A stretch of DNA of 64,000 nucleotides from Acidobacteriota bacterium (GTDB taxonomy: Bacteria > Acidobacteriota > Terriglobia > Acidiferrales > UBA7541): NCBI GenBank assembly GCA_003223295.1, contig QHYM01000104.1, positions 1 to 64,000 on the forward strand, in the 5' to 3' direction. This document shows, one piece after another, positions 31,514 through 59,605 of this stretch. How positions within the stretch are numbered: the first letter of the stretch is position 1; each line of letters starts with the position of its first letter. Position numbers and translations under genes: made by a program. The notes beneath the pieces were generated by a model. The model was given only the letters and a program-made list of their open reading frames with translations. It searched no databases and was not told the origin of the DNA.

Positions 31514-32200
31514 TTGAAAGACGTGACCAGTCAAAGTTTGCCGTTAACCACGCCGGCGAATCTCCGCATCTTGGCTAGCGATGCTGATCTTTCGCGGCTA
31601 ACCGACGAAGAACTCATCCTTTGCTTAAGGGCCGGGAGAAGCGAGGCGATGACCCATCTCTTCGATCGCTATTACATCACCGTTCGAAGCGTCGCCCGAA
31701 GAGTGCTTCGAAACTCCGAAGACATCGCGGATGTCGTCCAGGAATCCTTTCTTGACCTTCACCAAAACGCAAGAACTTTTGACCCTGCAAAGGGATCACT
31801 GAAAGCGTGGATTTCTTGTTTAACCTATCATCGCTGCATGAAAAGACTGCGGGCTCTGAAAAAACGGGATTGGCAATCCGGAGACGACGAAGAAAGCCTG
31901 GCGATTTTGGAAGCGAATGTGAAGCCAGAGCAGTGGATCCGTTCGCTGGACTTTCGAAAGTGCCTGGACAAAGCGCTGACTTCTTTGAATGAAAAGCAGC
32001 GCAAGACCATGGTGATGTACTTTTTTGACGGCAAGGAGCTCGGTGTCATTGCCAAGGAGACCGGCGAAAGCTTCGGGAACGCTCGTCATCACTTGTACCG
32101 AGGCTTGGAGAAAGTTCGAAAGGAACTGGTGCAAAACCACCTGCTCGCGGGCTATATAGAGTTTGGGAGCGTGGAAGGACACAAGAAGGTGGCGCGCTGA
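31514..32200 (+). CDS. ECF-type RNA polymerase sigma factor
   Basis: This 228-residue sigma-70-family factor has region 2 at about residues 40-110 (MTHLFDRYYITVRSVARRVL, then IADVVQESFLDLHQ) and region 4 at about 150-210 (LNEKQRKTMVMYFFDGKELG, then FGNARHHLYRGLEKVRKEL). The start is TTG 31514 or GTG 31523; neither has a strong ribosome site. The anti-sigma gene begins three bases after its stop, the usual pairing. With the receptor and isopeptidase downstream it resembles the FecIR-like regulators next to receptors in proteobacterial lasso peptide loci, so it may switch on uptake genes. That link is inference. Confidence 0.92.
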   Translation: MKDVTSQSLPLTTPANLRILASDADLSRLTDEELILCLRAGRSEAMTHLFDRYYITVRSVARRVLRNSEDIADVVQESFLDLHQNARTFDPAKGSLKAWISCLTYHRCMKRLRALKKRDWQSGDDEESLAILEANVKPEQWIRSLDFRKCLDKALTSLNEKQRKTMVMYFFDGKELGVIAKETGESFGNARHHLYRGLEKVRKELVQNHLLAGYIEFGSVEGHKKVAR

Positions 32201-32202
32201 CC

Positions 32203-33513
32203 GTGGAATCCTCTCACGAATATTTCGATCTGCTTTGCGCGATGGCGTCCGCTCATCAAGCCTCTCCGGAAGAGGAGCGTCAACTGGCAGAGCACGTCGA
32301 GTCGTGCGCGGCTTGCCGCCAGTCCGTTGAACAATTCAGACAAATCGTTTGGCAAGTCTATCAAGAGCAATTTGCAGGCGAAGACGAACGAGATGCAGTG
32401 GGCTTGTCCCAGGACGAGGCCGGCGAAAAATTGCTGGCAGAAGATCGCTTATTGAGAGAGCTTCGCAGAACGCAAGCGCTGCCGCTGACCGGCGAGCGGT
32501 TCGGTTTGGCGGCGGAGCGAAAGGGCACAGCGCGGAGAGTATTCTCTCTCTCCGGTGCTCCTGCGTGGGCGAGTTGGGCGGTGGCGGCATCCTTATTGAT
32601 AGCGGTAGCCGTGAATTCGACGCAATACTGGTTTTCGAGGCGACTTTCGGGGAACGAGGAAGCGCGGGCAATCGCGCTTCAGAAGGAAGTGGATCAGCTT
32701 CGGGAGGATCTGGCGAGAGAGCGGGCGGAACGCTCGCAAAGCGCACAGAAGCAGCAACCTGCGGCGGAGAACGGCGAGGCGCGGAAACTGCTGGCTGAAA
32801 ACGAAGCCTTGCGGCGGAGTTTGGCGGACAGCGAGGCGGCGCGGGAACAGCAGGCCCGCGATTTTGTAGCTTTGCGGGACAGAGAAAGATTGCTGCAGAG
32901 TTCGCTGGATGTGCTGCAGGCGTCCCAGGCCAGCGTGGAAGCAGAGAACGCCGGACTTTCAGAGCGGATTTCGAAATTAACGGACGACTTGAAGAAGGCG
33001 CGCGAAGATTCGACAGCGCTGACCGCACGGAATGAAGCGTTATCGCAGGAGACGCTTACCAAGGTGAAGTACGCGGAACGCCAGCAGAAGCTGCTGGCCA
33101 CGGACCATGACATTCGCGACATTTTGGGTTCGCGCAGCCTGCATATTATCGATGTGTATGACGTGAGCGGCGAAGGCGAGCTGCAGCGGCCGTTTGGGAG
33201 AGTTTTTTATAACGAGGGGAAGTCGCTTATTTTCTATGCCTTCGACCTGGACCAGCAGAAGGGCCTGAAACGCGGGGCCGTTTTCCAAGCGTGGGGGCAA
33301 AAGGGGGAAGGGAAGGAAATCGCGCGCAGCCTGGGGACCTTTTATATGGACGATTCGTCGCAGAATCGCTGGGTCCTTAAAGTGGATGACACCCGGGCAT
33401 TGTCGCGGATCGATTATGTGTACGTGACGGATAGTTCGCGCAAGGAGAGCGTGAAGCCCAAAGGGAAGCCGCTGCTGTCGGCGTTTCTCAACGGGCCAGC
33501 GAATCACCCGTAG
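32203..33513 (+). CDS. Zinc-finger transmembrane anti-sigma factor with long coiled coil
   Basis: This 436-residue protein starts at GTG 32203, right after the sigma stop. The N-terminal zinc-binding anti-sigma motif HVESCAAC (HxxxCxxC) lies at about residues 31-38. One transmembrane segment (SWAVAASLLIAVAV) is at about 125-145. A long charged coiled coil follows at about 165-300 (DLARERAERSQSAQ, RRSLADSEAAREQQ). The C-terminal domain at about 310-430 resembles the RskA-type extracytoplasmic part (VFQAWGQKGEGKEIARSLGT). It should hold the sigma factor at the membrane and release it on a periplasmic signal. Confidence 0.88.
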   Translation: MESSHEYFDLLCAMASAHQASPEEERQLAEHVESCAACRQSVEQFRQIVWQVYQEQFAGEDERDAVGLSQDEAGEKLLAEDRLLRELRRTQALPLTGERFGLAAERKGTARRVFSLSGAPAWASWAVAASLLIAVAVNSTQYWFSRRLSGNEEARAIALQKEVDQLREDLARERAERSQSAQKQQPAAENGEARKLLAENEALRRSLADSEAAREQQARDFVALRDRERLLQSSLDVLQASQASVEAENAGLSERISKLTDDLKKAREDSTALTARNEALSQETLTKVKYAERQQKLLATDHDIRDILGSRSLHIIDVYDVSGEGELQRPFGRVFYNEGKSLIFYAFDLDQQKGLKRGAVFQAWGQKGEGKEIARSLGTFYMDDSSQNRWVLKVDDTRALSRIDYVYVTDSSRKESVKPKGKPLLSAFLNGPANHP

Positions 33514-34048
33514 ATTTCAGAGATCAAGTTCCAGCGCGTCCTCTTGTTCAAATACCTCAAGTAGCCGATCGCGTCCTCTCGCTGTTTGGAGCGAATAAGC
33601 CTTTTCGTATGAATAAGGTAGCGGACGACTTCAAGTAAAGGTTTAAGATTTCATTCGGGGGGACTACCCACCCCCCAAGCACTGTTGCATGAATATCAAA
33701 ATACAGGACTTACAAAGCGGACAGTTCGTAAGTGATTGATTCTAAAAAGAAGCGAGATAGGTGGCGAGACGTCTGACGTATGACGCTTGGAAAAGGAAAA
33801 GCGGCACTCTAGGCTGCCACGCTCCAAAACTCGCAATACTTCCTAACTTCAAATTCTAGCAGAGGGAACGGTCCCGTCAAGGGCGATTTGAAACCGGGAA
33901 ATCCAGAAAGTTTTCGGATAGTTGAAGCGAGTATCTGGCGATGAAAGGGACATGCAGCGCGGAGTTGGTACAGAGGGCGGGCCGCGGGGCTATAGGAAAA
34001 GTAGCAGGGGTGATAGCGCCATTCAAAAAAGTGAGGTACGGGAAACTC
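33514..34048. other. 535-bp intergenic region with hairpins of a possible dispersed repeat
   Basis: No gene is visible. A G6/C6 inverted repeat at 33657-33676 is followed by a second inverted repeat (ACTTAC at 33708-33713, GTAAGT at 33728-33733). The arrangement looks like a small intergenic repeat element; only one copy is seen here. The remainder should hold the promoter of the receptor. Confidence 0.4.
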
Positions 34049-37000
34049 ATGAGAAACGCCAGAGTAGTGTGCGTGGTTGTGTGCGTATTGCTGTGTTTGC
34101 TGGGGGTGAGCAGTTCGGTCCTCGGGCAGGGAGACGTGGCCAGTGTGTCCGGCCGCGTGCTGGACCCCAACGGGGCCATCATCATCGAGGCGACAGTAGC
34201 CGCGAAGAATGTGGATAAGGGCGTCGAAACGGTGGTGCAGACGAACGAAGACGGAATCTACCGTTTTTCAAACCTCAGCCCGGGGAGCTATGAATTCACG
34301 GTGTCCAAGCGAGGCTTTAAGGTGATCGTAAAGCCAGGAGTTACCCTACATCTCGCGGACACGATTTCCCTGAATTTCAACATGGTGGTGGGGGCCATCA
34401 ATGAAACGGTGACGGTGCAGGCGGGCGCATCGATGATCAACACGACAGATGCGTCGATCAGCACGGTGGTGGATCAAAGCTACATCAAGAACATGCCGCT
34501 GAATGGACGCAGCTTCCAGGATTTGATCCTGCTCACGCCGGGGATCGTGACAAACACGCCGCAAAGGTCCTCGACGCTTGGCCAGAGCGGTGAATTCAGC
34601 GTGAACGGCCAGCGCACGGAATCGAATAACTACACAGTGGACGGCGTGAGCGCCAACGTGGGCGCCTCGGCGGACATCTTTGGCTATGCGATGACAGAGG
34701 GAGCGGGCGCCAGCGGCTCGGTGCCCGGCGCGACCGCCCTGGGAACGACGCAGGCGTTAGTGTCTGTGGATGATCTCCAGGAGTTCCGGGTGGAAAGTTC
34801 CACGTATTCGGCGCAATATGGACGCAATCCCGGAGCGCAGCTGGTTTTTGAAACGAAATCCGGCACCAATCAGTGGCATGGCACGGCATCGGATTACTTG
34901 CGGAATGACTATTTTGACGCGACCGAATATTTCACCAATTGGTTTCGTTCCGTTGATCCTACTCTCAGGAAATCCCCGGTTCGGCAGAATGATTTTGGCG
35001 GGACGCTGGGCGGACCGTTGAAAATTCCCGGCCTTTATAATGGGAAAGACAAGACATTCTTCCATGTATCGTATGAGGGGCTACGGTTGATGCTGCCACA
35101 GGCGGCAGCATCCTACCCTGTGCCGGACCTTTGCATGCGCGGCGACACCGCCAGCTGCCCGGTTGTCAACGGCACACAAAGAACCCCGGCTGACAGCGCA
35201 GTCCTGCCAGTGGTGAACGCGTTCCCCTTACCCAGCCCCAACAGCATACAGGATCCAACCGACGGCGTTTCCCAGTTCGTGGGTGCATGGTCTAATCCGG
35301 CGTCTGTCAATTCGACGGGTGTCCGTTTCGACCACACGGTTACTCAGAAATTGAGGCTGTTCTTCCGATTTAGCAACTCAACTTCCGATTCTAAAACCCG
35401 AGGATCGGCATTCGCCTTTCTTCCTCCTTCAGGGGTTGCGAGCACTCCCTATACTGATCGGACGTACACGGCCGGGGCCAACAGCGTCTTCAGCAGCCGC
35501 CTGAGCAACGATCTTCGTTTGAATTACAGCTCGAATGTGACTACGAGTACCCTCTCGCTGGACACCTTTGGAGGCGCCAAGGCCGCAGACTTCGTGCAAC
35601 TTGCCCAGATCAGCGGTCCATTTGCATCCGTGGGCGTAAACTTTGCCCTTGGCCCGTATTTCCTAAATATCGGACAGCAGGTAACTGCCGGGGCTCAGCA
35701 GCAGTGGCACTTAGTCGACACACTGCACATGGTGCGCGGGCTCCACCAACTGAGTTTTGGCGTGGATTACCGACGTTTGACTCCGTATGCCAAGCCGTTC
35801 AATCCGTTGTTGGGGTATTCCTTTGGTTTTGTCGCAGGAGAGGCCGACGTCGAACAAAATAACGCCCTCACTGTATACCTAACAGATGGTCCCGCATATC
35901 CGCTCTATTCCAACTACTCCCTGTTTGCTCAGGACGAATGGAAGGCGACACAACGTTTGAGCCTTTCTTTTGGATTGCGTTGGGAAGTAAATCCGCCACC
36001 CGGCGTTACCCAAGGCACGATGCCCAGCAATGTTTTGTTTCAGAATCCGGACGTAAATAGCTGGCAGCTTGCACCGCAGGGCACGCCACTATGGAGAACG
36101 AGTTGGTTCGACTTGGCCCCTCGGCTGGGTGCTGCCTACATTGTTCGCAACACGCCAGGTTGGGAGACCGTCGTGCGCGGCGGCGGCGGCCTGTTCTTTG
36201 ATAGCGGCCAGCAGGTTGGCTCGCTCGGCTTTGATGGGCCAGGATTCAGCTTGGCAAGTTTTGGCTTCGGCCCGTTTCCCAGCGGCGCGGTTGGGGTTGG
36301 GCTCACGGACCAGGCCCTAGCGGCTTATGGCTATTATCCTCATTTGCAATTACCTTACACGCTCCAATGGAACGCAGGCATTGAACAGGCCTTGGGTAAT
36401 TCACAAGCACTGACGCTCTCTTACGTTGGTTCGCATGCGGGGAGATTGCTTCAGACGAACCACATTCCGAGTTCCGTTGCGACAAGCGGAATTGCGAGTC
36501 AGACGGTCAATGGTGTTTTCCTCGTCCAGAACGGCCTCACCTCGGATTATGACTCGGCACAGCTGCAGTTTCGCAGAAGGCTGTCGCGGGGGTTGACATC
36601 TCTGGGTTCGTACACCTGGTCGCACTGTTTGGATTATGGCTCGACGAACGCCAACTTTGGCTACCAGAGGGGGAATTGCGACTTCGACGTGCGGCACAAT
36701 CTGCAGGCAGCTTTTTCGTATGACGTGCCCAATGTGGGACATGGTGGGATCGCCGGGGCCCTATTGCACCACTGGGGAATCGATGATCGCTTCATGGCGC
36801 GGACCGCGTTCCCTGTCACCTTGGTGGGAAACATCATTCCGCAGGTCGATGGAAGGCAATATGATGCCGGTCTCAGTTTTGTTCCTGGCCAGCCGATTTA
36901 CATTTACGGCGCCAATTGCACGTCTGTGCTTCAAGCAATGGGGAACCTTCTGCCAAACCAGGGATGCCCAGGCGGGCGGGCCATTAATCCAAATGCTTTT

Positions 37001-37303
37001 ACGTCCGTAAGCAGCGGTTTCGGCGATACCCCACGCAACTTTGCCAGAGGTTTTGGAGCTTGGCAGATGAATCTGGCGGTTCGCCGCGAGTTCCCGATTT
37101 ATGAGCATCTCGGCCTGCAATTTCGCGCGGAGGCTTTCAATATCTTCAATCATACGAATTTTGGCTTTGTAAACGGCCACTTTGGACAACCTACCTTTGG
37201 GCAAACCACGGCAACCCTTGCGAATTCGCTGGGTGTCCTAAGCTCGCTGTACCAAATGGGCGGGCCGCGCTCGATGCAGTTCGCGCTCAAGGTCGTGTTC
37301 TAG
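34049..37303 (+). CDS. Oar-like TonB-dependent receptor linked to the RiPP locus
   Basis: This intact outer-membrane receptor has 1084 residues. It has a signal peptide (VVCVVVCVLLCLLGVSSSVL), a carboxypeptidase-regulatory-like domain (VASVSGRVLDPNGAIIIEAT) at about residues 27-110, a plug (YIKNMPLNGRSFQDLILLTP) and a barrel ending in MQFALKVVF. ATG 34049 gives a clean signal peptide; a start at 33941 would put 36 residues before it. It follows sigma and anti-sigma genes and precedes the isopeptidase on the same strand. In proteobacterial lasso clusters this position is held by a receptor thought to re-import the peptide. Whether an Oar-type receptor does this is inference. Confidence 0.9.
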   Translation: MRNARVVCVVVCVLLCLLGVSSSVLGQGDVASVSGRVLDPNGAIIIEATVAAKNVDKGVETVVQTNEDGIYRFSNLSPGSYEFTVSKRGFKVIVKPGVTLHLADTISLNFNMVVGAINETVTVQAGASMINTTDASISTVVDQSYIKNMPLNGRSFQDLILLTPGIVTNTPQRSSTLGQSGEFSVNGQRTESNNYTVDGVSANVGASADIFGYAMTEGAGASGSVPGATALGTTQALVSVDDLQEFRVESSTYSAQYGRNPGAQLVFETKSGTNQWHGTASDYLRNDYFDATEYFTNWFRSVDPTLRKSPVRQNDFGGTLGGPLKIPGLYNGKDKTFFHVSYEGLRLMLPQAAASYPVPDLCMRGDTASCPVVNGTQRTPADSAVLPVVNAFPLPSPNSIQDPTDGVSQFVGAWSNPASVNSTGVRFDHTVTQKLRLFFRFSNSTSDSKTRGSAFAFLPPSGVASTPYTDRTYTAGANSVFSSRLSNDLRLNYSSNVTTSTLSLDTFGGAKAADFVQLAQISGPFASVGVNFALGPYFLNIGQQVTAGAQQQWHLVDTLHMVRGLHQLSFGVDYRRLTPYAKPFNPLLGYSFGFVAGEADVEQNNALTVYLTDGPAYPLYSNYSLFAQDEWKATQRLSLSFGLRWEVNPPPGVTQGTMPSNVLFQNPDVNSWQLAPQGTPLWRTSWFDLAPRLGAAYIVRNTPGWETVVRGGGGLFFDSGQQVGSLGFDGPGFSLASFGFGPFPSGAVGVGLTDQALAAYGYYPHLQLPYTLQWNAGIEQALGNSQALTLSYVGSHAGRLLQTNHIPSSVATSGIASQTVNGVFLVQNGLTSDYDSAQLQFRRRLSRGLTSLGSYTWSHCLDYGSTNANFGYQRGNCDFDVRHNLQAAFSYDVPNVGHGGIAGALLHHWGIDDRFMARTAFPVTLVGNIIPQVDGRQYDAGLSFVPGQPIYIYGANCTSVLQAMGNLLPNQGCPGGRAINPNAFTSVSSGFGDTPRNFARGFGAWQMNLAVRREFPIYEHLGLQFRAEAFNIFNHTNFGFVNGHFGQPTFGQTTATLANSLGVLSSLYQMGGPRSMQFALKVVF

Positions 37304-37671: not shown

Positions 37672-40011
37672 ATGGTTCCCGGGAAAATGATACTTGGCAG
37701 TTTGTTCTTAGGAACCCTCGTGTACTTGTTTGGCGCAGGTTCGCTAACGTTGATGGCCGAGCAGACGAAAAGGCCCTTCACCGTGGCCGACGACATTGAA
37801 ACATCGCTCTTGCTTCCGCTGGAAGATGGGCCAAACGTGCGGTTTTCGCCCGACGGAAGCTATTTCGCGGTTTATAGCGAGCGCGGGAATTTGGCCAGGA
37901 ACCAAGTTGAAGATTCGCTCCGGTTCTACCGGAGCCAAGAAGTCGAGAATTTCCTGGCGCACGCGAAGGAATCGCGGCTGCCTTCCCCAGCGTGGGTGGT
38001 GAATCGCTCGGAAAAAGAGGGACCGATCATCCACAATTGGCGCTGGCTGGCAGACTCCAGTGGAGTGGCCTTTTTGCAGCCAGCGGCCAATGGAAACTAT
38101 CAACTCGTCCTTGCCGATCTGCGAAAAAAGACAATCGAACCGCTGACCTCCCCCTCCGAGCAACTCGGGGAATACGCCCTGTTCGATATTCGTGATCGGA
38201 GCCATTACGTTTACACGGCGGCTGACCCGCAAGATGCAAAGAGTGTGCCAGAGAAGCAGGAGAGAGAGAGTCGTGCGCCAGCGATTGTGGGGACGGGGCG
38301 CCGTCTGGAAGAGCTGCTTTTTGCAGACGATCCTCTGGTAAAGAAGATAGTGACTGCCCCTAAGAGCTACCTGTGGGCGGTCGTGGGGAACAAGCGTTTC
38401 GAGGTGAAGCACGATGGCAAGGCCCTGGTTCCTCAAGCACAGCCATTGGGGCGGGGGCTGGCACTGGCACCCGATGCCCGGACCGTGGCTTTGACACTTC
38501 CCGTTCCGGAAGTGCCATCCTCTTGGGAAACGCTCTATCCGCCACCTTCGGCATCCTCCTTCTACAGGATCCATGCCGGGCAAGGATCGGCGAGGCAGTT
38601 CGTCCGCGTTGATTTGCAAACTGGCGCGGTTCACGCGTTGACGGACGCGCCAGTTAGTATGGATGGCGGTTGGATTGCGTACGGGGGTCCTGATTGGTCA
38701 AGCAATGGCAATCAAATCGTGCTGCCAGGAACTTTTGTGAAGGCACAGGATAACGCGCCATCGCGGCCGTGTGTCGCAATTGTGAATATACGGTCGGACG
38801 CCTCTAGTTGTGTGGAGATGATAAAGAGCAGCCATGCTGATAATCCGACCGATGCGGGTTCCCACACGGTGATCGCTGCCCGCTTTGTCGATGGAGATGA
38901 GCAGCGGGTTCTCGTGAGCTTCTGGAAGGAAAACTGGTCCACCTGGACGACGAAGTACGAGTGGAAGGGCAACCGTTGGGAAATGATCGGGCAGAGCGAG
39001 GGAGAGGAGCAAAGCGGCCTAAGCGGCCTGCAAGTTAGGGTAAAGCAGGATCTCAACGAGGCGCCACTGCTGGTTGCTTCCATGAAAGGGAATTCACGGG
39101 TCATCTGGGATCCGAATTCGCAGCTCAAAGATATCCAGTTGGGCCAGGCCAGCGTATACACGTGGAAAGATAAGGAAGGGCGGGAGCAGAAGGGCGGACT
39201 GTACAAGCCCGCCAACGACCAGGCAGGTCGGCGCTACCCGCTGGTGCTTCAGACGCATGGATTTCTGGAAGAAGGATTCCGGCCCTCGGGGACCGGCTTT
39301 GGACCGGCGTACGCCGCAAGAGCGCTGGCCGGCGCAGGCATCGCAGTGCTGCAGCTTGGAGAACAATGTGCCGCTCCAGCGCCTAACGAAGGGGCCTGCG
39401 CGGTCTCCGGCTATGAGGCCGCTGCAAACCAATTGGTGGCCGATGGACTCGTCGATCCCGATAAGATCGGCATCATCGGGTTCAGCCGGACTTGCTACTA
39501 CGTGATGGAAGCGCTGACCACTGGTTCATCCCTCCACCTTAAAGCTGCATCGGTCACGAGCGGAGTAATGGAAACCTACTTTCAATACATGCAGAGCCCG
39601 GAAGGATCAGAGGCGAATACCGTGATCGGCGCCGCGCCCTTCGGCGAAGGATTGCAGCAATGGTTAAAACGATCTCCGGGGTTCAATCTCGATAAGATTA
39701 CAACGCCGCTGCTGGTCAATGCAGAGGGCCGAGGTATCAACGTTCTGGAGATGTGGGAGCCTTACGCCGGACTGCATTATTTACACAAGCCGGTGGACCT
39801 GATCGTCCTGAATACGGATGAGCACGTGCTGACGAATCCAGCGGTGCGCCTGGCATCGCAAGGTAGCCGCCGGGAATTGAAATTATTCCCAGTCGGCATA
39901 CGCGGGGATGAGGTCGTTCTGGCCGGTGCTGTTTTCATTGAGGGGGTTGACCGGGGATTTGAAAGTCGGGTGGGTTGCCTGCAAGACATGGATGGCGATG
40001 AACGGCGTTAG
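37672..40011 (+). CDS. Atxe2-type lasso peptide isopeptidase (S9 family) with an aberrant C-terminus
   Basis: This 779-residue exported serine hydrolase has an N-terminal signal or anchor (MILGSLFLGTLVYLFGAG), a beta-propeller at about residues 50-470 (FSPDGSYFAVYSERG) and an alpha/beta-hydrolase domain. The nucleophile is Ser605 in IGFSRTCYYV and the likely catalytic His is His718 in NTDEHVLTNP. Atxe2 enzymes cut the isopeptide ring of lasso peptides. After LASQG at residue 731 the usual tail (a conserved aromatic helix of about 40 residues in relatives) is missing. The last 48 residues are translated antisense to precursor gene 3. The catalytic residues remain, so activity is possible but uncertain. 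Confidence 0.87.
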   Translation: MVPGKMILGSLFLGTLVYLFGAGSLTLMAEQTKRPFTVADDIETSLLLPLEDGPNVRFSPDGSYFAVYSERGNLARNQVEDSLRFYRSQEVENFLAHAKESRLPSPAWVVNRSEKEGPIIHNWRWLADSSGVAFLQPAANGNYQLVLADLRKKTIEPLTSPSEQLGEYALFDIRDRSHYVYTAADPQDAKSVPEKQERESRAPAIVGTGRRLEELLFADDPLVKKIVTAPKSYLWAVVGNKRFEVKHDGKALVPQAQPLGRGLALAPDARTVALTLPVPEVPSSWETLYPPPSASSFYRIHAGQGSARQFVRVDLQTGAVHALTDAPVSMDGGWIAYGGPDWSSNGNQIVLPGTFVKAQDNAPSRPCVAIVNIRSDASSCVEMIKSSHADNPTDAGSHTVIAARFVDGDEQRVLVSFWKENWSTWTTKYEWKGNRWEMIGQSEGEEQSGLSGLQVRVKQDLNEAPLLVASMKGNSRVIWDPNSQLKDIQLGQASVYTWKDKEGREQKGGLYKPANDQAGRRYPLVLQTHGFLEEGFRPSGTGFGPAYAARALAGAGIAVLQLGEQCAAPAPNEGACAVSGYEAAANQLVADGLVDPDKIGIIGFSRTCYYVMEALTTGSSLHLKAASVTSGVMETYFQYMQSPEGSEANTVIGAAPFGEGLQQWLKRSPGFNLDKITTPLLVNAEGRGINVLEMWEPYAGLHYLHKPVDLIVLNTDEHVLTNPAVRLASQGSRRELKLFPVGIRGDEVVLAGAVFIEGVDRGFESRVGCLQDMDGDERR

Positions 40012-40032
40012 TTCTGGAGCTTCGTATTTCAT
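39883..40032 (-). CDS. Putative lasso-like RiPP precursor 3
   Basis: This 49-residue peptide starts MKYEAPELTPFIAIHVLQA. It keeps the YxxPxL leader motif (Tyr3, Pro6, Leu8), then THPTFKSP and LNEN, and ends NDLIPAYADWE. It is the most divergent of three copies but shares start, length and C-terminus with precursors 1 and 2. Its ribosome site (GGGGACGG) is weaker, and it lacks the 3' hairpin of the other two. The whole 3' two thirds lies antisense to the end of the isopeptidase frame. If the ring follows the pattern of the others, Ser26 would pair with Glu33. Confidence 0.75.
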   Translation of the reverse strand: MKYEAPELTPFIAIHVLQATHPTFKSPVNPLNENSTGQNDLIPAYADWE

Positions 40033-47790: not shown

Positions 47791-47795
47791 CTCGG

Positions 47796-51019: not shown

Positions 51020-51937
51020 CTAGGCGGCCGCCGGTTCCAGCCGCTGCACGGACTGCCAATGCTCGCCCTTGGCCAACTTGAATTCCTGCACGATTTGAGC
51101 TTCTGAGCAAAATGCCAGTGCCGGGTCGCCGGCGCGCTCGTGGACAAACCAGTACTGCGCGAAGCCGGGAAAATAGGGAGGGCCGATGGTCCCATCAGCA
51201 TTGAGATGGATTCTCATCTCTTCATCCCCCGTCTTCAGTCGCAGAGTGCGATTCTTGAGCTTGTTCATACTGTCTTCGTCAATTTTGATGTGCCAATTGA
51301 AAGGGGGCTTGTAGCGGCCTTCGAAGAAATCGATGTTCACGAACTTATTTTCGGGATGCAGGCCATGAGCCATGAAGACGGGCACTTCACAACTGAGCCG
51401 GCTGCCTCCGAAACCAATCCAGTTGTATCTTCGATCCAGCAACTCCAGTTTGAGACCGCGGCGATGACGAGTGATGTTCAAAGCCGCCTGGTCATAGGGA
51501 TCGTATTCGGCGAACTTCTGATCGGTTTGTACGAAACGTTCCGTCTCTCGAAGCCAGTCTTGATGGCACTTGCGATTTAGAATCAGAAGCCCCGCGTTGA
51601 AGTACTCATTCAAAGGGATCCGCCAATCTCGGGCGGTGCGGACATGCAGGGGACGAGCGCTCTCGGCCACGGCGACCAGCGCATCTTTCCTCGCGAGGCG
51701 TTCGGGCTTCCAGGGATTGAGGCAGACCATATCCGCGTCGAAATACAGCACGAATTCATCATCCACGAAATCGAACAGCCGCAACTTGAGATGGTGGGGA
51801 GCAGGAAGGCCTGAGGCAGTGAAGTGTTCATCGCCGAGGATGATGGTCTTCACGCCGATTTTTTCCTCGAGGGCGCGCGCGGCGAGTTTTGCGAGGCGGC
51901 TGTAATACTCACCGGTACCAATGGTGATTCCTATCAT
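51020..51937 (-). CDS. GT8-like glycosyltransferase, copy 1
   Basis: This 305-residue paralogue of the next gene starts MIGITIGTGEYYSRLAKLAA. It has DxD in VLYFDADMVCLNPW and the shared blocks YFNAGLLILNRKCHQDWLRE, LKLELLDRRYNWIGFG and NIDFFEGRYKPPFNWHIKID. Its ATG overlaps the stop of the upstream GT4 gene (ATGA, 51934-51937), so the three glycosyltransferases are coupled. GGAG lies a few bases before this ATG. The tandem pair probably arose by duplication and may add two related sugars. Confidence 0.88.
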   Translation of the reverse strand: MIGITIGTGEYYSRLAKLAARALEEKIGVKTIILGDEHFTASGLPAPHHLKLRLFDFVDDEFVLYFDADMVCLNPWKPERLARKDALVAVAESARPLHVRTARDWRIPLNEYFNAGLLILNRKCHQDWLRETERFVQTDQKFAEYDPYDQAALNITRHRRGLKLELLDRRYNWIGFGGSRLSCEVPVFMAHGLHPENKFVNIDFFEGRYKPPFNWHIKIDEDSMNKLKNRTLRLKTGDEEMRIHLNADGTIGPPYFPGFAQYWFVHERAGDPALAFCSEAQIVQEFKLAKGEHWQSVQRLEPAAA

Positions 51938-53043
51938 GTTCTCCAATCCCTCGCGACCGCCTGTGAAAAGCGGTCAGAATTGACAATTTCCATGATTCGT
52001 TTTTCCAGGATGGCGTTTACAGAATTACGGTTGAACTTCTGAATGTCGTTCGAGGCATTGCGGATTCTTCGAAGAATCTCAGGGGCGCCTCGCTCCTGAT
52101 AGAGCAAGAGCATTTTTTGTTGCAAGTCGTCCAGGGAAGGGTAGGCCCACTTCATACTCGAATCGAAAAGATAGAAACAATCTTCCGGCTTGATGTGATC
52201 TTCGGCGAAGTCGAGCAGCAAGGAATTGTCCGCATTCATGAACTCGCGGTTCCCCGAGTAGCCAGTTGCGATCGTGGGTTTTTGAAAAAGCATTGCATCG
52301 GACAGGGTCAGCCCCCAACCCTCCGAATGGTGCGGGCTGACGTACGCGTCGGCGGTCGCATAAAGGGCGTTCACCTGGGTTTCATTCAGGTTTTCTCGCA
52401 GGACGATGATGCCATCGGTCACCAGAGCTCCAGCATCGTCTTGAGGACCAGCCTTGATGATGAGTCTCGCTTTCGGCATGGTTGACCGCTGGTTCCGAAA
52501 AGCAGTCATGAGAGCGGTTGTGTTCTTTCGCAAGTCCCATAGTTTTGTCACCATGAAGAAATAGAAATTGCCTGGATCGTAGGAAATGGCGCGCCCAATG
52601 TATTCGCCGTCGGCTTCCGAATAACTCGTATCGCGCTCGACGACGTGCGGCACATAGATGACTCGAGGGTGGTGCCTTGCGAAGATTTCCAAGCAGTATT
52701 GCGAACATGTCCAAATTTCCTGAACCTGGCGGATCGCTTCCCGATACGAGATGGGCAATTCACTGGCTTCCCAGACGCAATACCCGACGACATACTTCTT
52801 TCTCAAGACAGGATAAGTTTCAAAAAGAGAGGCGAAGGTGTGTGGTTCGAAATGAAGAACCACGATGTCTGCGAGATCAATTTCCTTCACTACGTTGCAC
52901 TGGCTTCGGATAATGTTGCGGTAAACTCGCGCTACTCTTGCATGGCTTGGATATCGGCCACAGCCATAGGAAACCTTCACATTCCTCAGGGTCGACTTCG
53001 AGCCGGCAATTTCTTTTGTAATTTCTTGGCCAACGGCTTCCAT
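51934..53043 (-). CDS. GT4-family glycosyltransferase
   Basis: This 369-residue GT-B-fold enzyme has the C-terminal GT4 blocks GNFYFFMVTKLWDLRKNTTA, LNETQVNALYATADAYVSPH and SEGWGLTLSDAMLFQKPTIA, with the E-x7-E-like pattern around SEGWG. The N-terminal half has VVLHFEPHTF and VGYCVWEASELP. I start at ATG 53043, preceded by GGGA. It is the first gene of a long minus-strand run down to the precursors. The promoter should lie in the gap to the divergent PqqD-like gene. Confidence 0.88.
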   Translation of the reverse strand: MEAVGQEITKEIAGSKSTLRNVKVSYGCGRYPSHARVARVYRNIIRSQCNVVKEIDLADIVVLHFEPHTFASLFETYPVLRKKYVVGYCVWEASELPISYREAIRQVQEIWTCSQYCLEIFARHHPRVIYVPHVVERDTSYSEADGEYIGRAISYDPGNFYFFMVTKLWDLRKNTTALMTAFRNQRSTMPKARLIIKAGPQDDAGALVTDGIIVLRENLNETQVNALYATADAYVSPHHSEGWGLTLSDAMLFQKPTIATGYSGNREFMNADNSLLLDFAEDHIKPEDCFYLFDSSMKWAYPSLDDLQQKMLLLYQERGAPEILRRIRNASNDIQKFNRNSVNAILEKRIMEIVNSDRFSQAVARDWRT

Positions 53044-53376
53044 AGTATTCCCATCCCGACGAGTCACGTTGCACTTTACGCTTTGGTTTTTGCTGGGCGG
53101 GCTATCAGCCGTTCAGGGCAACGGACTTCTCGTCCGGCTAATGTAGGGCGGGGATTGTAGCGAGTGCTGGAGCGTTCTTTTTTAGTCTCTGCCCTCAAAA
53201 GATAAAAAACCCCTAGGTCCCATGTCAATAGCGTCGGGCCCGAAGTGCAAGTACGGATTGTTTTTTGTGTTTGTGTAAGAGCGAATAACTGTGCGATGAA
53301 GTATGGGTTGGAGCTTTTTGAAGTTGAGACGTGGTTTACCTAAGGGCTCCGAACAAAACGGAAGAGGAGAGCAACA
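53044..53376. other. Divergent promoter region of the GT operon and the PqqD-like gene
   Basis: The 333-bp gap is A/T-rich around 53200-53290. It should contain promoters in both directions. A 15-codon frame starting MKYGLELF at 53296 recalls the MKYE starts of the precursors but has no ribosome site and no core, so I do not call it a gene. Confidence 0.45.
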
Positions 53377-53634
53377 TTGCAGGTGTCAAGCGTAGCTCGC
53401 GTGGCCAAAACTTCCGATGGAAAGGCGGTCATGGAGGTTGCTGGCCGGCCCGCTTTTGAATTGAATCCCGTAGCTTTGAGTATTTGGACGAAGCTCACAT
53501 CCGGCCATTCGCTCCCGGAGATCAGTTCGCAGATCGCTGCGGAATTTGGCGCTCCGGAAGGTGTGACGGCAAGGGATGTTCAGCGCTTCGTCAAACAATT
53601 GAAGGACCATCTTCTCGTTTACGACGACAACTGA
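53377..53634 (+). CDS. PqqD-like RRE protein (likely lasso B1)
   Basis: This 85-residue protein has the PqqD fold pattern: beta strands VMEVAGRPAFELNPVALSIW, then helices LPEISSQIAAEF and TARDVQRFVKQLKDHLLVYD. Such RiPP recognition elements bind the leader peptide and hand it to the B2 protease and cyclase; in lasso systems they read the YxxPxL motif, present in the three precursors here. TTG 53377 has GAGGAGAG upstream; GTG 53383 is the alternative. It stands alone on the plus strand 8 kb from B2, an unusual split. Confidence 0.85.
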   Translation: MQVSSVARVAKTSDGKAVMEVAGRPAFELNPVALSIWTKLTSGHSLPEISSQIAAEFGAPEGVTARDVQRFVKQLKDHLLVYDDN

Positions 53635-53688: not shown

Positions 53689-54258
53689 TTAGACGGGCGA
53701 AGAGTCAGGCCGTTTTGAGGCGTGACCAAGCCTTGTGTAGGGATTCTCTTGTGCAGCTACCCATTCGGAGTTCCCTCCGCCCTGCATTTGAAAGCGCTTG
53801 GGCCGTTTGCCGAATGTGTTTTGAAAGCAACGCGAAAATGCGGACGTAAAACTGTAGCCGAGAACTCTGGCCGCTTCGTCGACATTAAGGTTCTTTGACT
53901 CTCTGAGGAGCTTTTCTGCCGTCTTCATTCTGACTCGCCGGGCATATGCGCGCATGGTGACGCGGTATAGCTTCTTGAATTGCCTGCTGACCAGCGAAAG
54001 ACTTATCTGGAATTTCTCACATTCTTTGGCCGGGCTGCACGACAGACTGCCGCCTGATTCGTCAATCAGTTGCCGAATTCTTGCCGCTACCTGCCTAGAC
54101 CTACACACTGCTTTTTCCAGGATGAGATCCGTTGCCCAGCCCAATAAGAACAATTCAGGACCATGGTAGGAAGGTTGCGACCGTGAAACGCTGTAAGTGT
54201 CCGCAGCAGAGGACTCGTACAATGAGGAAACGGGCTTAGGTTTCTCTGTAGCTTTCAT
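53689..54258 (-). CDS. AraC-family transcriptional regulator
   Basis: This 189-residue regulator has a C-terminal double helix-turn-helix at about residues 75-175 (FQISLSLVSRQFKKLYRVTM, then DEAARVLGYSFTSAFSRCFQ). The N-terminal 70 residues are short and show no ligand domain. It lies between the PqqD-like gene and the second GT4, reading against both, so it may control one or both divergent units. No operator was recognised. Confidence 0.87.
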   Translation of the reverse strand: MKATEKPKPVSSLYESSAADTYSVSRSQPSYHGPELFLLGWATDLILEKAVCRSRQVAARIRQLIDESGGSLSCSPAKECEKFQISLSLVSRQFKKLYRVTMRAYARRVRMKTAEKLLRESKNLNVDEAARVLGYSFTSAFSRCFQNTFGKRPKRFQMQGGGNSEWVAAQENPYTRLGHASKRPDSSPV

Positions 54259-54666
54259 GTTACGCAGCGACCGATCGGAAGTTCATTTTGAAGGGGCAAA
54301 GGCCATAACGTAATTGTGTATTGGGCGGAATATTGACTGCGACCAAGGCACAACATTCGGGCAGGGCAAAAGGCTGGGGCCAAAAACAGCATGCTGAATG
54401 GAGCCTCCTAGCCGAGTCAATCAGGGACAGTTCTCATATCCGGCCAAAGTAGGCTCATTGCGTGTTGGTTAAGCTTCTCTTCATAGTTGTCTCTATGTTG
54501 ATGAACCAATTCCTGCCGTGAGTTGTCACAAAAAGAAAAAGCCATTAGTTGCATTGTCTAACGAAATCAATTGACGCTCAGTTCGAGTCTTTTCTAACGT
54601 CGAGGAGAGAAAGGTGCAGATGTGTTTGATGTTTTGAAGGTACTTCGAATTCCAGGAATGCACCAG
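54259..54666. other. Intergenic region between AraC regulator and GT4
   Basis: The stretch holds no gene that I can support. It is divergent, so both promoters must lie here. A GAGGAGAG run at 54602-54609 could serve an alternative GTG start at 54622 for the GT4 gene. Confidence 0.4.
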
Positions 54667-56310
54667 ATGAAGGCGCTGTATATCGATCAAGTTGCCGGAA
54701 ACCCCGAGTCTCCTCATACCAAGAACGGTCAGACAATCAAGGGCGCTGGTGTTTTTGAATGGAACCTGCTTTCCGCACTGCTGGAACATGGAACCTACGA
54801 TGCCTACTTCGCACCCGGATTAACCGAAGAGAAGAGACAAGCACTGGCGCAAGAAGGTTTGAGCGCGGATAGCGTCAGGCGTCTGGTCCCTGTACCTCTT
54901 TGGGGACCGCCACCCATCAAGACCGAGGATAAAGTCGTCCTGTTGACGGCGGGACGGTTCCTGAATGCCCTGGCAGGCATTCGTCAAAAACTGAAGCAAT
55001 TCAACGCACCGGTGTGCGGATTCGTGCACTCGATAAACTCGCCGCGCATTGCATTTGCTTTGCTGCAGCAGTGTTTTGCCGGTCTTTCGGGGGCCGATCT
55101 CTTGCTTTGTTCCAGCCGGGCAGGAATGAAAACCATCGACACGTACATTAACGAGATCAACGGGTTCTTACCTTTAGAACTGCACTATCCAGCGCGCCGG
55201 GCTCTCGTTCCTTTAGGGGTCAAGCTTCCATCAACGAAGCAGACAACCGGTGGGACTCTTAGGCAGAAGTTCAGTCTAGAAACGGATGCTTGCATCGCCC
55301 TGTACTTCGGCCGTTTGTCCCAGACCAGTAAGTGTGATCTTGGGCCCCTTCTTGTTGCTTTTTCCCAGTTGCTGCGGAAAGGGAAGAGTCTCTACCTGAT
55401 TATTGCGGGGGACGACACGCAAGCCAAGGAAGCTCCACGCCTGCAGGCCCTTGCCAGAGAGCTAGACTGCAATGAAAGCCTTATGGTTTGGGCTAATCCG
55501 TCGGCTGAAGACAAACATCTCCTCTATTCCGAGGCAGACTTTTTTGTGTCCCCGAGCGACAACATCCAAGAAACGTTTGGGCTGACGGTTGCCGAGGCAA
55601 TGGCTTATGGGTTGCCAGCGGTTGTATCGGACTGGAATGGTTATCGAGACTTGGTGAAAGACGGGCAAAATGGATTCTTGATCCCAACCGCCTTCCCATC
55701 CACCGTGGAAAGCCTTCGTCTTTGTGATTGCACCATGTCCATGTTAGAGGAAGATTTGCTGGCCCAGTCCACGACGGTCGACGTCTTGGCATTGTCCGAA
55801 AGGATGGAGCAACTTGCGGAGAATCCAGAATTGCGCGCGCACATGGGAAAAACCGCCAGACAGTTTGTGGAAGACACTTGTAGCTGGCGGGCCGTGGTGA
55901 GACGCTACGAGGAAATCTGGGAAGAGTCTCTGCATTTTGCGAGCAGCCCCGCTTCGCGCCCGAGGAAATCCGGCCAGTTATTTGACATTTCGCTGGAGAA
56001 GTGTTTTGGGCACTACGCAACTGTAAAGCGCGGCGCGGAGCAGAGATGCTTCATAACACGCGAAGGTCGGGAATGGCTAAAGCAACCCGGGCGTTTGTAT
56101 TTTTTATGCCGCTTGTCAACTGCTTTGAATCCCCAAGAATTCACGCATATATTGCGGCACATTGCGGATTGTCCTGGTTTCTCGATCAAAGAAATTGTTG
56201 CGTCTCTGTCAAACGGTGCAGCCCTTACAGCGGCGAACGCACATTGGATCTTGGCTCGTCTTTTCAAATATGGGCTTGTGACAGACCAACAGGATAGTCC
56301 TAAGACATGA
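54667..56310 (+). CDS. GT4-family glycosyltransferase with C-terminal winged-helix-like domain
   Basis: The protein has about 547 residues. The first 420 form a GT4 enzyme: TKNGQTIKGAGVFEWNLLSA at the N-terminus, then IALYFGRLSQTSKCDLGPLL, LLYSEADFFVSPSDNIQETF and GLTVAEAMAYGLPAVVSDWN. About 110 extra residues follow, with REGREWLKQPGRLYFLCRLS and FSIKEIVASLSNGAALTAAN, then a final helix and strand. This looks like a winged helix and, by shape, a little like PqqD/RRE folds. ATG 54667 fits the family start (MKALYIDQ); GTG 54622 is possible. A glycosyltransferase with its own leader-binding domain is an attractive but untested reading. Confidence 0.82.
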   Translation: MKALYIDQVAGNPESPHTKNGQTIKGAGVFEWNLLSALLEHGTYDAYFAPGLTEEKRQALAQEGLSADSVRRLVPVPLWGPPPIKTEDKVVLLTAGRFLNALAGIRQKLKQFNAPVCGFVHSINSPRIAFALLQQCFAGLSGADLLLCSSRAGMKTIDTYINEINGFLPLELHYPARRALVPLGVKLPSTKQTTGGTLRQKFSLETDACIALYFGRLSQTSKCDLGPLLVAFSQLLRKGKSLYLIIAGDDTQAKEAPRLQALARELDCNESLMVWANPSAEDKHLLYSEADFFVSPSDNIQETFGLTVAEAMAYGLPAVVSDWNGYRDLVKDGQNGFLIPTAFPSTVESLRLCDCTMSMLEEDLLAQSTTVDVLALSERMEQLAENPELRAHMGKTARQFVEDTCSWRAVVRRYEEIWEESLHFASSPASRPRKSGQLFDISLEKCFGHYATVKRGAEQRCFITREGREWLKQPGRLYFLCRLSTALNPQEFTHILRHIADCPGFSIKEIVASLSNGAALTAANAHWILARLFKYGLVTDQQDSPKT

Positions 56311-56404: not shown

Positions 56405-57715
56405 CTACGCCACTTCCTTAGCGGCCGCCTTGGCTGGCGCACGAAAAACTATAGCGCGATTCTCATTTCGCAAATATTTTTGCGCCACGGTCATCGTTTG
56501 TTCCCGCGTTACTGCCAGAAATTCATCCAAAATAGTGTTTACTAACTGCGGTTGGTCATCGAAAAGCGCGAAACAAGCCAGCAAATGCATCAGCCCATAC
56601 TTCGGCATGTAGGGGCCACCATCGTCCAGGCGCGCATAAAAATCTGCTTGCCATTTCACTAACAACTGGTTCAATTCGTCCGTGGTCAGGCCAACCTCTT
56701 GAACGCCGCGAATGACCGCGTCAAATGCTAGTAGTGCAGATTCACTGGGATACTCCGGCCGGAACCGAAGGCATGTAATCAACTGATTCGGACCATTATA
56801 GCCGAAGAAATCGTCGATTCCGCCCCAAGCTTCTAAGGCAATTTGCCTTTTTTCCACCAACTCGCGGTGAATTCTCCCGGCTCTTCCATAGTGGAGCTCC
56901 TGATCGAGTAGCGCCATTGCGCACCAATCGCTGGTCCGCCTCTCAGGCATCAAATATCCAACGGCCAAGGACGGCAACGCTCCAATTTTCTCTTCAATGT
57001 ATCCGCGCCGTTCTTGGGTTTGTTCGGGCTCGCTTGGATCGAAGGAGGGAAGAGCCGTTCCAGCGGGAATGCTGCCAAAGTATTGCTCCGCCAAAGCGAG
57101 GCCGTCTTGCGGCTTCACGTCGCCAAGCATCAGCAAAACAGCATTATTGGGCACATAATAGGTTTTGAAAAATGTTTCCAGATCTTTTAAGTCGATGGCG
57201 TCGAGATCCGCGAAATCGCCATAGCACGTGTGCGCATTCGCCCAATTGCGAAACGCCATGGCAGGCATGTCAAGTATGGGAAAGCCGCCATAGGGTTGGT
57301 TCAGCACATTGCGACGAACTTCTTCTTTGATAACATCGCGCTGAGTTTTCAGGTTCCCTTCGTTAAGCTTGAGAGCTCGCATGCGGTCTGCTTCCAGCCA
57401 GAGCACGCGGCAGAGCGCGTTTGAGGGCACGGATTCAAAATAATTGGTCCAGTCGCAGCCCGTTGAACCATTAGACCGCCCTCCGCTCGCGTGGATTAGC
57501 TTGAGGTGTTGCTCTCTTGGTGCGTTCGCAGAGCCTTGAAACATCATGTGTTCGAGCAAGTGCGCAAAGCCGCCGCGGCCTGGGGGGTCCATGCGGAAAC
57601 CAACCTTGTAGTACACGCCCACAGTCGTCACTGGTGCGCTGTGATCCGGTGCGATGACGACTTTTAAACCGTTCGGCAGCGTTATGTATTCAATCGTAAT
57701 TTGGAGTCGTTTCAA
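56405..57715 (-). CDS. M16-family zinc metallopeptidase
   Basis: This 436-residue peptidase has the inverted zinc motif HLLEH (His52, Glu55, His56) in FAHLLEHMMFQ, and the third ligand in the helix DVIKEEVRRNVLNQ. It has one catalytic and one inactive M16 domain, the normal length for PqqL/YmxG-like members, and no signal peptide. The start is TTG 57715 with a poor ribosome site. M16 enzymes work in RiPP pathways such as PQQ, where they cut precursors. Next to an ABC exporter here it could process or degrade the peptide; this is inferred from neighbours. Confidence 0.88.
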   Translation of the reverse strand: MKRLQITIEYITLPNGLKVVIAPDHSAPVTTVGVYYKVGFRMDPPGRGGFAHLLEHMMFQGSANAPREQHLKLIHASGGRSNGSTGCDWTNYFESVPSNALCRVLWLEADRMRALKLNEGNLKTQRDVIKEEVRRNVLNQPYGGFPILDMPAMAFRNWANAHTCYGDFADLDAIDLKDLETFFKTYYVPNNAVLLMLGDVKPQDGLALAEQYFGSIPAGTALPSFDPSEPEQTQERRGYIEEKIGALPSLAVGYLMPERRTSDWCAMALLDQELHYGRAGRIHRELVEKRQIALEAWGGIDDFFGYNGPNQLITCLRFRPEYPSESALLAFDAVIRGVQEVGLTTDELNQLLVKWQADFYARLDDGGPYMPKYGLMHLLACFALFDDQPQLVNTILDEFLAVTREQTMTVAQKYLRNENRAIVFRAPAKAAAKEVA

Positions 57716-57826
57716 TCGTTGCTCTGCCTTCCAGACGGCATTGTTCTTCTCGGAAAGGACTCAATTGAGTGGAACAGCACAGCAGGGCATGGGACGGCAC
57801 TAAGTTTCGCTGGGCACGGACTTTCA

Positions 57827-59605
57827 TTAATTACTCTTTGGGAGTTGGGCAACGGATTCCGTATTCAGAAGCGCCGTTGGCGCACTATGCAAATGCGTAT
57901 AGAGGCCGCCGGTGCGAATCAATTGGTCGTGCGTTCCCTGTTCCTGGATCACTCCTCGGTTGAGAACAACAATTCGGTCCACCCATTTAAGCGCCGCAAT
58001 CCGGTGCGATACGAACACGATGGTTTGGCTGGGAAAATGGCGCGCCAAATTCATAAACACCCGTCGTTCGGACGGTGCGTCGAGGGCGGAGGTAGATTCA
58101 TCAAGCAGCAAAATCGAGGGTTTGTGGAGCACGGCCCGGGCCAGCGCTACGCGTTGCTTTTCACCGCCAGACAGCGCGTTCCCTCTTGGGCCCACGGGTG
58201 TGTCCCAGCCTTGCGGCAACCGCCGAAACAGCTCTTCTAGATCGGCAATCTCGACTGCTGTATGAAGTTCTCCAGTCGTCGCGGAGGGGTTTCCCAATAG
58301 AATATTTTCCTTCAGTGTGCGGTCGAAAAGCACGGCATCCTGCAATAAATAGCAAACCCTTGTTCGCAGGCTTGCCAGCCGGATCTTACGAACGTCAATC
58401 CCGTCGATATAAACCGTGCCTCCACTCGCGTCATAAAGCCGGGCGATCAGCTTTGCGATGGTGCTTTTTCCGCTCCCGCTTATGCCTACCAACGCCACTT
58501 TCTCGCCGGGCCCGAGTTTGAGTTGAATCCCGTCCAGCACAGGAACGCCATCCCGATAACAGAAATCAACTCTCTCCATTTCCACATAGCCTCGGAGCGG
58601 GGAAGGGAAGGTGATGGCGTCGGGCCGTTCAGGCACGCTGGGAGTCCTTTCCATAACCTCCAGAATTCTGCGGATATTGGTCCCTAAGCGATTCAACTGG
58701 GAATAAATGTCCACGGCGGCACGCAAGGGATCAAATAAGCGCCCCATGTAACTATAAAAGGCGACCACGCCGCCGATCGTCAGAGCCCCAATAAACACCT
58801 GGTAGCCACCATAACCAAGGATCGCGATCGTGCCCGTGGCGATGATGGCCATGTAGCAGGAGCTGAACAGGACCTCGACTAGTTCCCGATGATTTACTGC
58901 TTTCATGCGCTCCATCGCCCACTTTTGGAATGTTTGCGATTGGTTTTTCTCTTGATGAAGGAGCTGAACCTGAATGACGGAAGTAAGATGCTCCTGAAGA
59001 AAACTGCTCTCTTTGGCAGCTTTCTCCTGGGCCAGATCCGAGGCGCGGCGCAGAGGCTTTTCAAACTTCTTTCGGAAAACAAAGAAAAGAGGCATCAAGG
59101 GCAGAACAAGGCTGGTGAGCTTAAAATCAAGGGTGAACATGGTGCCCATGACGAAGATGGAGTTGAATGCGGTTTGTAGTGCATAGGGCACCAGGTTCGA
59201 TCCTCCTTCGGCTACCTGGTCCACGTCCTGTTCCAGGCGATAGAGTCTTTCGCCAACCGGCGTTGAATCATGGTAGTCGGCGGAAAGACGGTTCATTTGC
59301 TCCAGGATATTAAGGCGCATCTGGAAGACAAGATTCTGAACGGTTCGAAAATTCACGAGCTGGGCCAGCGTGAAAAAGCCCAGCCGAAAAATGTAAAGCC
59401 CAAAGAATCCTAGGGCAGTGAGAAGAAGGAGACGGAAGTCCTTCTTGGGAAGGACATAGTCAATCAGCCATTTGAGAAGCAAGGGATCGAGAAGAAACAT
59501 GGCGCTGCTTAGAACCACGAGCAGCACGCCCAGTGAGTAGGACGGGAAAAGGGGCCGCATTTGGCGAAGGAACCAGCGCGCCTGCGCTTTGAGCGTCGAA
59601 CTCAC
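57827..59605 (-). CDS. ABC-type exporter, fused permease and ATPase (McjD-like candidate)
   Basis: This 592-residue half-transporter has six membrane segments at about residues 1-310 (SLGVLLVVLSSAMFLLDPLL, LLTALGFFGLYIFRLGFFTL) and an ATPase at about 340-575 with Walker A GISGSGKST, signature LSGGEKQR, Walker B ILLLDEST and VFVSHR. GTG 59605 follows AAGGAG with normal spacing. There is no N-terminal C39 peptidase domain, as expected when B2 removes the leader. It is the best candidate for the export and self-immunity pump of the locus. Confidence 0.9.
   Translation of the reverse strand: MSSTLKAQARWFLRQMRPLFPSYSLGVLLVVLSSAMFLLDPLLLKWLIDYVLPKKDFRLLLLTALGFFGLYIFRLGFFTLAQLVNFRTVQNLVFQMRLNILEQMNRLSADYHDSTPVGERLYRLEQDVDQVAEGGSNLVPYALQTAFNSIFVMGTMFTLDFKLTSLVLPLMPLFFVFRKKFEKPLRRASDLAQEKAAKESSFLQEHLTSVIQVQLLHQEKNQSQTFQKWAMERMKAVNHRELVEVLFSSCYMAIIATGTIAILGYGGYQVFIGALTIGGVVAFYSYMGRLFDPLRAAVDIYSQLNRLGTNIRRILEVMERTPSVPERPDAITFPSPLRGYVEMERVDFCYRDGVPVLDGIQLKLGPGEKVALVGISGSGKSTIAKLIARLYDASGGTVYIDGIDVRKIRLASLRTRVCYLLQDAVLFDRTLKENILLGNPSATTGELHTAVEIADLEELFRRLPQGWDTPVGPRGNALSGGEKQRVALARAVLHKPSILLLDESTSALDAPSERRVFMNLARHFPSQTIVFVSHRIAALKWVDRIVVLNRGVIQEQGTHDQLIRTGGLYTHLHSAPTALLNTESVAQLPKSN

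Follow-up and report, generated by a model that had tools for sequence, protein, structure and literature searches.

Lasso peptide precursors with Ile or Val at position -2 of the leader, linked to kinases, have been partly described from acidobacteria (Duan et al., 2023; PMC10368454), and an Ile(-2) context for the cut made by the leader peptidase B2 is proved there for Bradymonas and noted for Acidobacteriaceae. Pseudomycoidin is the one known glycosylated lasso peptide, and it is also phosphorylated (PMC9266682). Here we describe a biosynthetic locus with lasso-type enzymes and several sugar enzymes in a 64,000-nucleotide stretch of DNA (the window) from an uncultured soil acidobacterium. 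The window lies on contig C175, and the metagenome-assembled genome (MAG) to which this contig belongs measures 6.0 Mb and has relatives in Terriglobia (Acidobacteriota). To our knowledge, no lasso peptide is glycosylated by a dedicated set of glycosyltransferases (GTs), and the single case of hexose addition involves an unusual enzyme.

The system spans 31.5–60.5 kb of the window. It probably makes a glycosylated macrolactam by a lasso-type pathway of the acidobacterial Ile/Val(-2) lineage, a branch of the ribosomally synthesized and post-translationally modified peptides (RiPPs), and the product would be exported, taken up again, deglycosylated and linearized. This reading builds on gene families, conserved linkage, precursor motifs and a fusion between a RiPP recognition element (RRE) and a GT, which can be read directly from the sequences. 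The first-pass annotation of the window had listed three precursors, B2, two cyclases, an RRE, an isopeptidase, an ABC exporter, an M16 peptidase, four GTs and two glycoside hydrolases (GHs), and all are present where it placed them. Two of its boundaries had to be moved. The start of GT8b, set at 51201, lies near 50985, and the system does not end at 59605 but continues to a second AraC-type regulator at the locus edge (60065..60505, reverse strand; HTH_18) that is kept in relatives.

Lasso-type machinery and the glycosyltransferase branch

An RRE, a B2 peptidase and a cyclase free of the glutaminase Cys, which together characterize lasso clusters, are all found in the window, and the earlier assignment to lasso-type machinery is borne out by each of them. 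B2 (44696..45181, reverse strand) scores 75 bits against NF033537, above the curated cut-off of 33, and keeps its Cys-His-Asp residues, Cys and His being conserved in 93–94 of 94 homologues. The discrete PqqD-like protein (53377..53634, forward strand; PF05402, NF033530) is, judged by profile comparison, the lasso B1/RRE: a profile built on 15 RREs of such loci found TbiB1 (4e-16) and TfuB1 (1.6e-10) as its top matches in the PDB. The first cyclase, C1 (42734..44659, reverse strand), and the second, C2 (40643..42634, reverse strand), have lass_lactam_cya (NF033535) as their best NCBIfam family, with 286 and 240 bits, under the cut-off of 525. Both start with MSVQ and lack the glutaminase Cys, as predicted and as in all relatives. 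Those relatives sit beside precursors and are not ordinary asparagine synthetases, a finding that the first-pass annotation had said would count against it.

In the cyclase tree, the C1 and C2 proteins fall into sister clades, each with full support, and therefore derive from one duplication. The PP-loop of C1 reads SGGRDS in all C1 proteins of the double-cyclase clade and in only 1 of 70 other cyclases, while its GGDE motif and C-terminal Lys are retained. C2 has kept a normal PP-loop (SGGMDS), but some two thirds of its members no longer have GGDE (GGEI in the window). These reciprocal changes suggest, as we infer it, a division of labor or a heterodimer.

Relatives were collected by searching a family set of 89 genomes with C1 and mapping 40-kb regions around the matches. 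About 20 syntenic loci were found in the family, with 41–70% identity to C1. Another 76 named loci came from the GTDB species genomes and are almost exclusively acidobacterial (among them 'gp2' MAGs, Candidatus Acidiferrum, Candidatus Sulfotelmatobacter and Granulicella). Of 396 genomes searched across the phylum, 10 had cyclase relatives (E <= 1e-80), the window's own included. The order sigma factor, anti-sigma factor, TonB-dependent receptor, isopeptidase, precursor, cyclase, B2, RRE and ABC exporter is conserved in the roughly 20 family loci and in many of the 76 named relatives, with an S9 enzyme in the isopeptidase slot. Single-cyclase loci usually have a prolyl oligopeptidase and/or an aminoglycoside phosphotransferase (APH)-like protein beside B2. 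The APH-like protein occurs in many single-cyclase relatives and in no GT locus, window included; GT-bearing double-cyclase loci have neither enzyme. The oligopeptidase could trim the N-terminus ahead of a conserved Lys, and the phosphotransferase could phosphorylate the precursor. One such single-cyclase locus, L053 (12557-15993), has a prolyl oligopeptidase (S9_N and S9) and an APH-like phosphotransferase by B2.

The four GTs are GT4a (54622..56310, forward strand; PF00534), which ends in a helical domain of ~120 aa, and, all on the reverse strand, GT4b (51934..53067; PF13692/PF00534), GT8a (51020..51946; weak PF01501) and GT8b (50062..50985; PF01501). Close homologues of GT4a occur in 7 of the 89 family genomes, which are exactly the seven that carry C2 (Fisher 1.5e-10). 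GT8a, for which a sequence search found no relative among solved structures, is seen only in second-cyclase genomes (6 of 89), always at the locus. The order GT4b-GT8a-GT8b-B2-C1-C2-A is conserved at 45–86% protein identity. In addition, sister loci in genomes G019, G011 and G002 encode fusions of ~415 aa with an N-terminal RRE (PF05402) and a GT half that matches the UDP-xylose-binding glycosyltransferase AO75L (1.2e-9). In an AlphaFold model of one such protein, of modest confidence (predicted local distance difference test score 56), the RRE part resembles TbiB1 and the remainder AO75L. Because GT4a co-occurs with C2 and RRE-GT fusions exist, the GTs are best regarded, on this genomic evidence, as members of the precursor pathway and not as passengers.

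The glycosidases are linked more loosely. The GH127-like protein (47796..49850; PF07944/PF20736) and GH92 (45463..47790; PF07971, 1e-178), both on the reverse strand and with Tat-like N-termini, are inserted between GT8b and B2 in the window and in G007 and G008. The full architecture is found in three genomes, one of them (G008) pieced from three contigs. Elsewhere, the G019 locus carries a GH3, and a C-terminal GH92 remnant adjoins the exporter in L046 of contig G011C117 (36931-37117 of the joined L045 and L046 region), which suggests that the glycosidase was lost in that lineage. The first-pass annotation had counted all sugar enzymes as part of the system and had staked this on their co-occurrence with precursor loci. 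Such co-occurrence was found; the claim holds for the GTs and only in weaker form for the GHs.

Precursors and ring closure

The three precursor genes lie on the reverse strand next to C2: A3 (39883..40032; MKYEAPELTPFIAIHVLQATHPTFKSPVNPLNENSTGQNDLIPAYADWE), A2 (40142..40294; MKYETPELTALTAVNAIQQSTHPVFKAPSSFLQDASLRNDVIHAYADWED) and A1 (40424..40576; MKYETPELTALTAVNAIQQGTHPVFKAPASILQDAHLMNDVQRAYADWED), with A1 and A2 paralogous to each other. None of the three is recognized by Pfam or NCBIfam. They are nonetheless real genes, because nearly all relatives have, next to the cyclase, homologues that share the leader and the C-terminal motif. The comparison covered about 105 distinct precursors; the list of 106 includes one alternative-start pair and a few near-identical sequences. 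When the Tyr of the leader motif YxxP is numbered -17, 95 of 106 precursors have Ile or Val at -2, and 75 have Gly, Ser or Ala as residue 1. A1, A2 and A3 all have YxxP and all lack Thr(-2). In A1 and A2 the Ile comes one residue earlier than the count from Tyr(-17) predicts, since these two have a leader shorter by one residue. In A3 the -2 region reads VLQ or LQA.

When the cut is fixed by Ile/Val(-2), the usual lasso acid at core position 7–9 is found in just 36 of 106 precursors and is absent from 70. In A1–A3, a cut after Ile-x puts the first acid at 14–16, and an acid falls at 7–9 only if the core begins at or beside a conserved Lys. This Lys is followed by Asp or Glu 5–8 residues downstream in 97 precursors. 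The distance is 6 in 44 of them and 7 in 38 (10.6 and 9.5 in shuffled sequences), and 8 in the window's three. It varies less than the distance from leader to acid (standard deviation 0.9 against 1.9), and the position of Lys predicts that of an acid defined independently of it (r 0.59, p 3e-10), compared with r between -0.40 and 0.38 for ten other residue types. We discarded a core that starts after Lys (in the window, A1..D8), as it gives rings of 5–7 residues in relatives and ignores the conserved Ile/Val(-2). The precursors of L123, L130, L131, L133 and L135 have Ile/Val(-2), Gly1 and Asp8/Glu9, as in an ordinary lasso ring, and in addition a Lys (or Arg) as residue 3. They could be intermediates that connect the classic ring with the Lys-acid type.

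The C-terminus is also fixed, as AYEADE or AYDLDE in most single-cyclase loci and as [GA]YxDWE in double-cyclase loci. N-[D/E] precedes [GA]YxDWE in 16 of 16 precursors from GT4a loci, in none of three from double-cyclase loci whose whole genomes lack GT4a, and in 1 of 87 single-cyclase precursors, counts that come from few, related loci and are not phylogenetically independent. An N-x-S/T sequon was rejected as the sugar signal, since several motifs lack it (NDV, NEP, NEH).

The Lys-acid pattern allows two other accounts of the ring. It is possible, though we would not favor it, that the product is no lasso but an unthreaded macrolactam in which the Lys side-chain amine is joined to Asp or Glu 5–8 residues downstream, leaving a free and variable N-terminal stub. 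The many precursors without an acid at 7–9, the tight and correlated spacing, and the ring of 6–9 residues counted from Lys (mostly 7–9, and 9 in the window group) all fit this account. Yet we know of no lasso-type cyclase that closes Lys to Asp or Glu, the basal L123, L130, L131 and L133 fit Gly1–Asp8/Glu9, and the core could instead begin with Lys itself if the leader is cut elsewhere or the peptide is trimmed. The other account is an ordinary threaded lasso peptide, with a leader that ends just before or next to Lys, a 7–9 ring and GTs that act on something else. We consider this rather unlikely. All class-defining enzymes are present, Lys as residue 1 gives a 7–9 ring in 83 of 93 precursors, and isopeptidase and TonB genes are typical of threaded products, but the conserved Ile/Val(-2) followed by Gly, Ser or Ala points to a cut further upstream, and the GTs track both the second cyclase and the precursor motif, with the RRE-GT fusions tying them to leader binding.

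Two further accounts concern the genes themselves. C2 could be a decaying duplicate in a degenerating locus, as its frequent loss of GGDE, its split form in G007 and the odd end of the window's isopeptidase might indicate. This seems improbable, since C2 is full-length in most loci, belongs to one clade and retains its PP-loop, and since the fixed reciprocal change in C1 suggests shared work. More improbable still is that the GT and GH genes are a separate island for surface polysaccharide or glycan use that lies in a lasso locus by chance. GH92 and GH127 are widespread families, and a GH127-GH92 pair stands at a contig end in G012, a genome in which no lasso cyclase was found; but that pair is itself flanked by counterparts of two genes of the locus, its regulator and its ABC exporter, GT8 and GT4a are absent from every family genome without a second cyclase, and the GT-to-cyclase gene order, with GH127-GH92 within it, has been kept.

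Proposed pathway and surrounding genes

In the glycosylated macrolactam pathway that we favor, the RRE would bind the YxxP leader of A1–A3, the GTs would glycosylate the precursor, with the Asn in its C-terminal N[D/E]...[GA]YxDWE block as a plausible site, and B2 would remove the leader after the Ile-x site. C1 would activate Asp or Glu and link the acid to an amine on the conserved Lys or close to it, with C2 as its partner or as an enzyme of second specificity. Glycosylation with its site and timing, the ring donor, any threading and the role in uptake and recycling are all inferred. The ABC protein (57827..59605, reverse strand; fused permease/ATPase, PF00664/PF00005) would export the product, and the TonB-dependent outer-membrane receptor (33941..37303, forward strand; CarboxypepD_reg and OMP_b-brl_4) would retrieve it and signal through the anti-sigma/sigma pair. 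This pair, present as in isopeptidase-type lasso clusters, consists of an extracytoplasmic function sigma factor (31514..32200, forward strand; Sigma70_r2/r4_2), which is beside the receptor in most relatives, and an anti-sigma-like membrane regulator (32203..33513, forward strand) assigned by synteny and a sub-threshold zf-HC2-like N-terminus. GH92 and GH127, putatively periplasmic, would remove the sugars, and the isopeptidase homologue would open the ring. All three have Tat-like or Sec-like N-termini.

The isopeptidase homologue (37672..40011, forward strand; S9 family, N-terminal signal) had been called Atxe2-type. Homology is upheld by a match to the AtxE2 structure 5txc (7e-10) and by the alignment of its Ser (GFSRT) and His (DEH) with those of AtxE2; family membership is less clear, as it scores 137 bits against NF033523, far under the 400-bit cut-off. 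In some loci, for example L088, L099, L101 and L117, the same slot is taken by another S9 subtype with GHSxGGY instead of GFSRT, which may be a functional replacement.

Several observations weigh against the proposed pathway. The Asp of AtxE2 is not found at the aligned position in the isopeptidase homologue, which diverges after SQG, lacks the VDWF motif of its relatives and runs into A3 on the opposite strand; this odd C-terminus may be an assembly error. No RRE-GT fusion is encoded in the window itself, and the C-terminal domain of GT4a did not emerge as an RRE from profile comparison (0.7% probability) or from a fold search (nothing below E 0.8), so that direct contact between GT and peptide in the window would be conjectural. 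Most GT loci lack GH92 and GH127, and G034 has a GH92 homologue that lies away from lasso genes. Finally, we know of no product of this pathway.

The remaining genes within the locus encode an AraC-type regulator (53689..54258, reverse strand; HTH_18) and an M16 peptidase (56405..57715, reverse strand; PF00675/PF05193), the latter also present in one sister locus, G011C117. Directly upstream, at 26796-30910, are a second TonB-type receptor, a SAM methyltransferase and an acyltransferase-like protein, and no homologues of these were seen in sister loci. The window's own MAG contains a second lasso-type locus, L075 (G000:C355, 1-9671), which is cut by the contig end and has an RRE, an APH-like phosphotransferase, a prolyl oligopeptidase, B2 and the start of a cyclase, and is thus of the kinase/oligopeptidase type. 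A single genome can hold two or even three of these loci, whose precursors differ (L096, L098 and L100 in Candidatus Acidiferrum typicum UBA7541; L089 and L091 in gp2 AA100), and the family is therefore strongly expanded in these soil bacteria.

Comparison with known systems

The first-pass annotation considered the locus unlike any lasso system. This is true of the double-cyclase GT branch, for which, as for the Lys-acid rule, no report was found in open-licence literature. It does not extend to the wider lineage of acidobacterial Ile/Val(-2) lasso peptides, which is already known (PMC10368454), nor to lasso glycosylation as such (PMC9266682). Its suggestion of a glycosylated or new RiPP class is likewise half sustained: the GTs are genetically tied to the pathway, and a new class does not follow from this. 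Such a lasso-derived class, in which the C1-C2 pair would make a macrolactam from a Lys side chain and Asp or Glu, RRE-guided GTs would build an oligosaccharide on the conserved Asn, and the product would be secreted, retrieved through TonB, deglycosylated and linearized, is in our opinion unlikely.

The locus is of interest on several counts. Its GTs, the RRE-GT fusion in sister loci and the covariation of a precursor motif with GT presence make the sugar site directly testable, and a Lys-to-acid rule in most of ~100 acidobacterial precursors questions ring closure in a large, little studied branch. Export, TonB uptake, glycosidases and isopeptidase together bear on the purpose of isopeptidase-type lasso peptides, and the evidence suggests that glycosylated peptides of a lasso-like kind are both produced and recycled by bacteria.

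The nearest described relatives are the bsf clusters of Bradymonadales and Acidobacteriaceae (PMC10368454), which share the YxxPxL leader, Ile/Val(-2) and a discrete RRE with B2, cyclase and ABC protein. The phosphotransferase-like protein reported in that paper is matched in our single-cyclase relatives; the kinase or phosphotransferase typical of Ile/Val(-2) phosphorylated lasso peptides is lacking in the window. The window branch departs from the bsf clusters in its pair of cyclases, in having GTs where those have a kinase, and in a fixed YxDWE at the C-terminus, and its precursors lack an acid at 7–9, in contrast to the Gly1-Asp8 closure predicted for bsfA. Isopeptidase-type clusters (astexin/AtxE2 and sphingopyxin; PMC9266682) also have an isopeptidase homologue, a TonB receptor and a sigma/anti-sigma pair beside the precursor. 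The window differs from them in its ABC exporter (rare there, in rubrinodin only), its separate B1 and B2, its AraC instead of GntR regulators, and a distant isopeptidase without the aligned Asp.

Lariocidin B is a lasso peptide that uses a Lys side chain in a second isopeptide bond, as one of the readings here would have it for the ring, but its bond goes to the C-terminal carboxylate and involves a clostripain-type peptidase and not a second cyclase (PMC11451635). Pseudomycoidin is a lasso peptide that bears hexoses; its sugar is added to a C-terminal phospho-Ser by the nucleotidyltransferase-like PsmN, whereas the window has GT4 and GT8 enzymes (and sister loci RRE-GT), with no kinase and no C-terminal Ser (PMC9266682). 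Fusions of an RRE to a GT domain, as in the sister loci, have been listed by RRE-Finder; those are PF00535 (GT2) proteins (PMC12710340), whereas the sister-locus fusion resembles the AO75L/RXYLT1 type and stands in a lasso locus.

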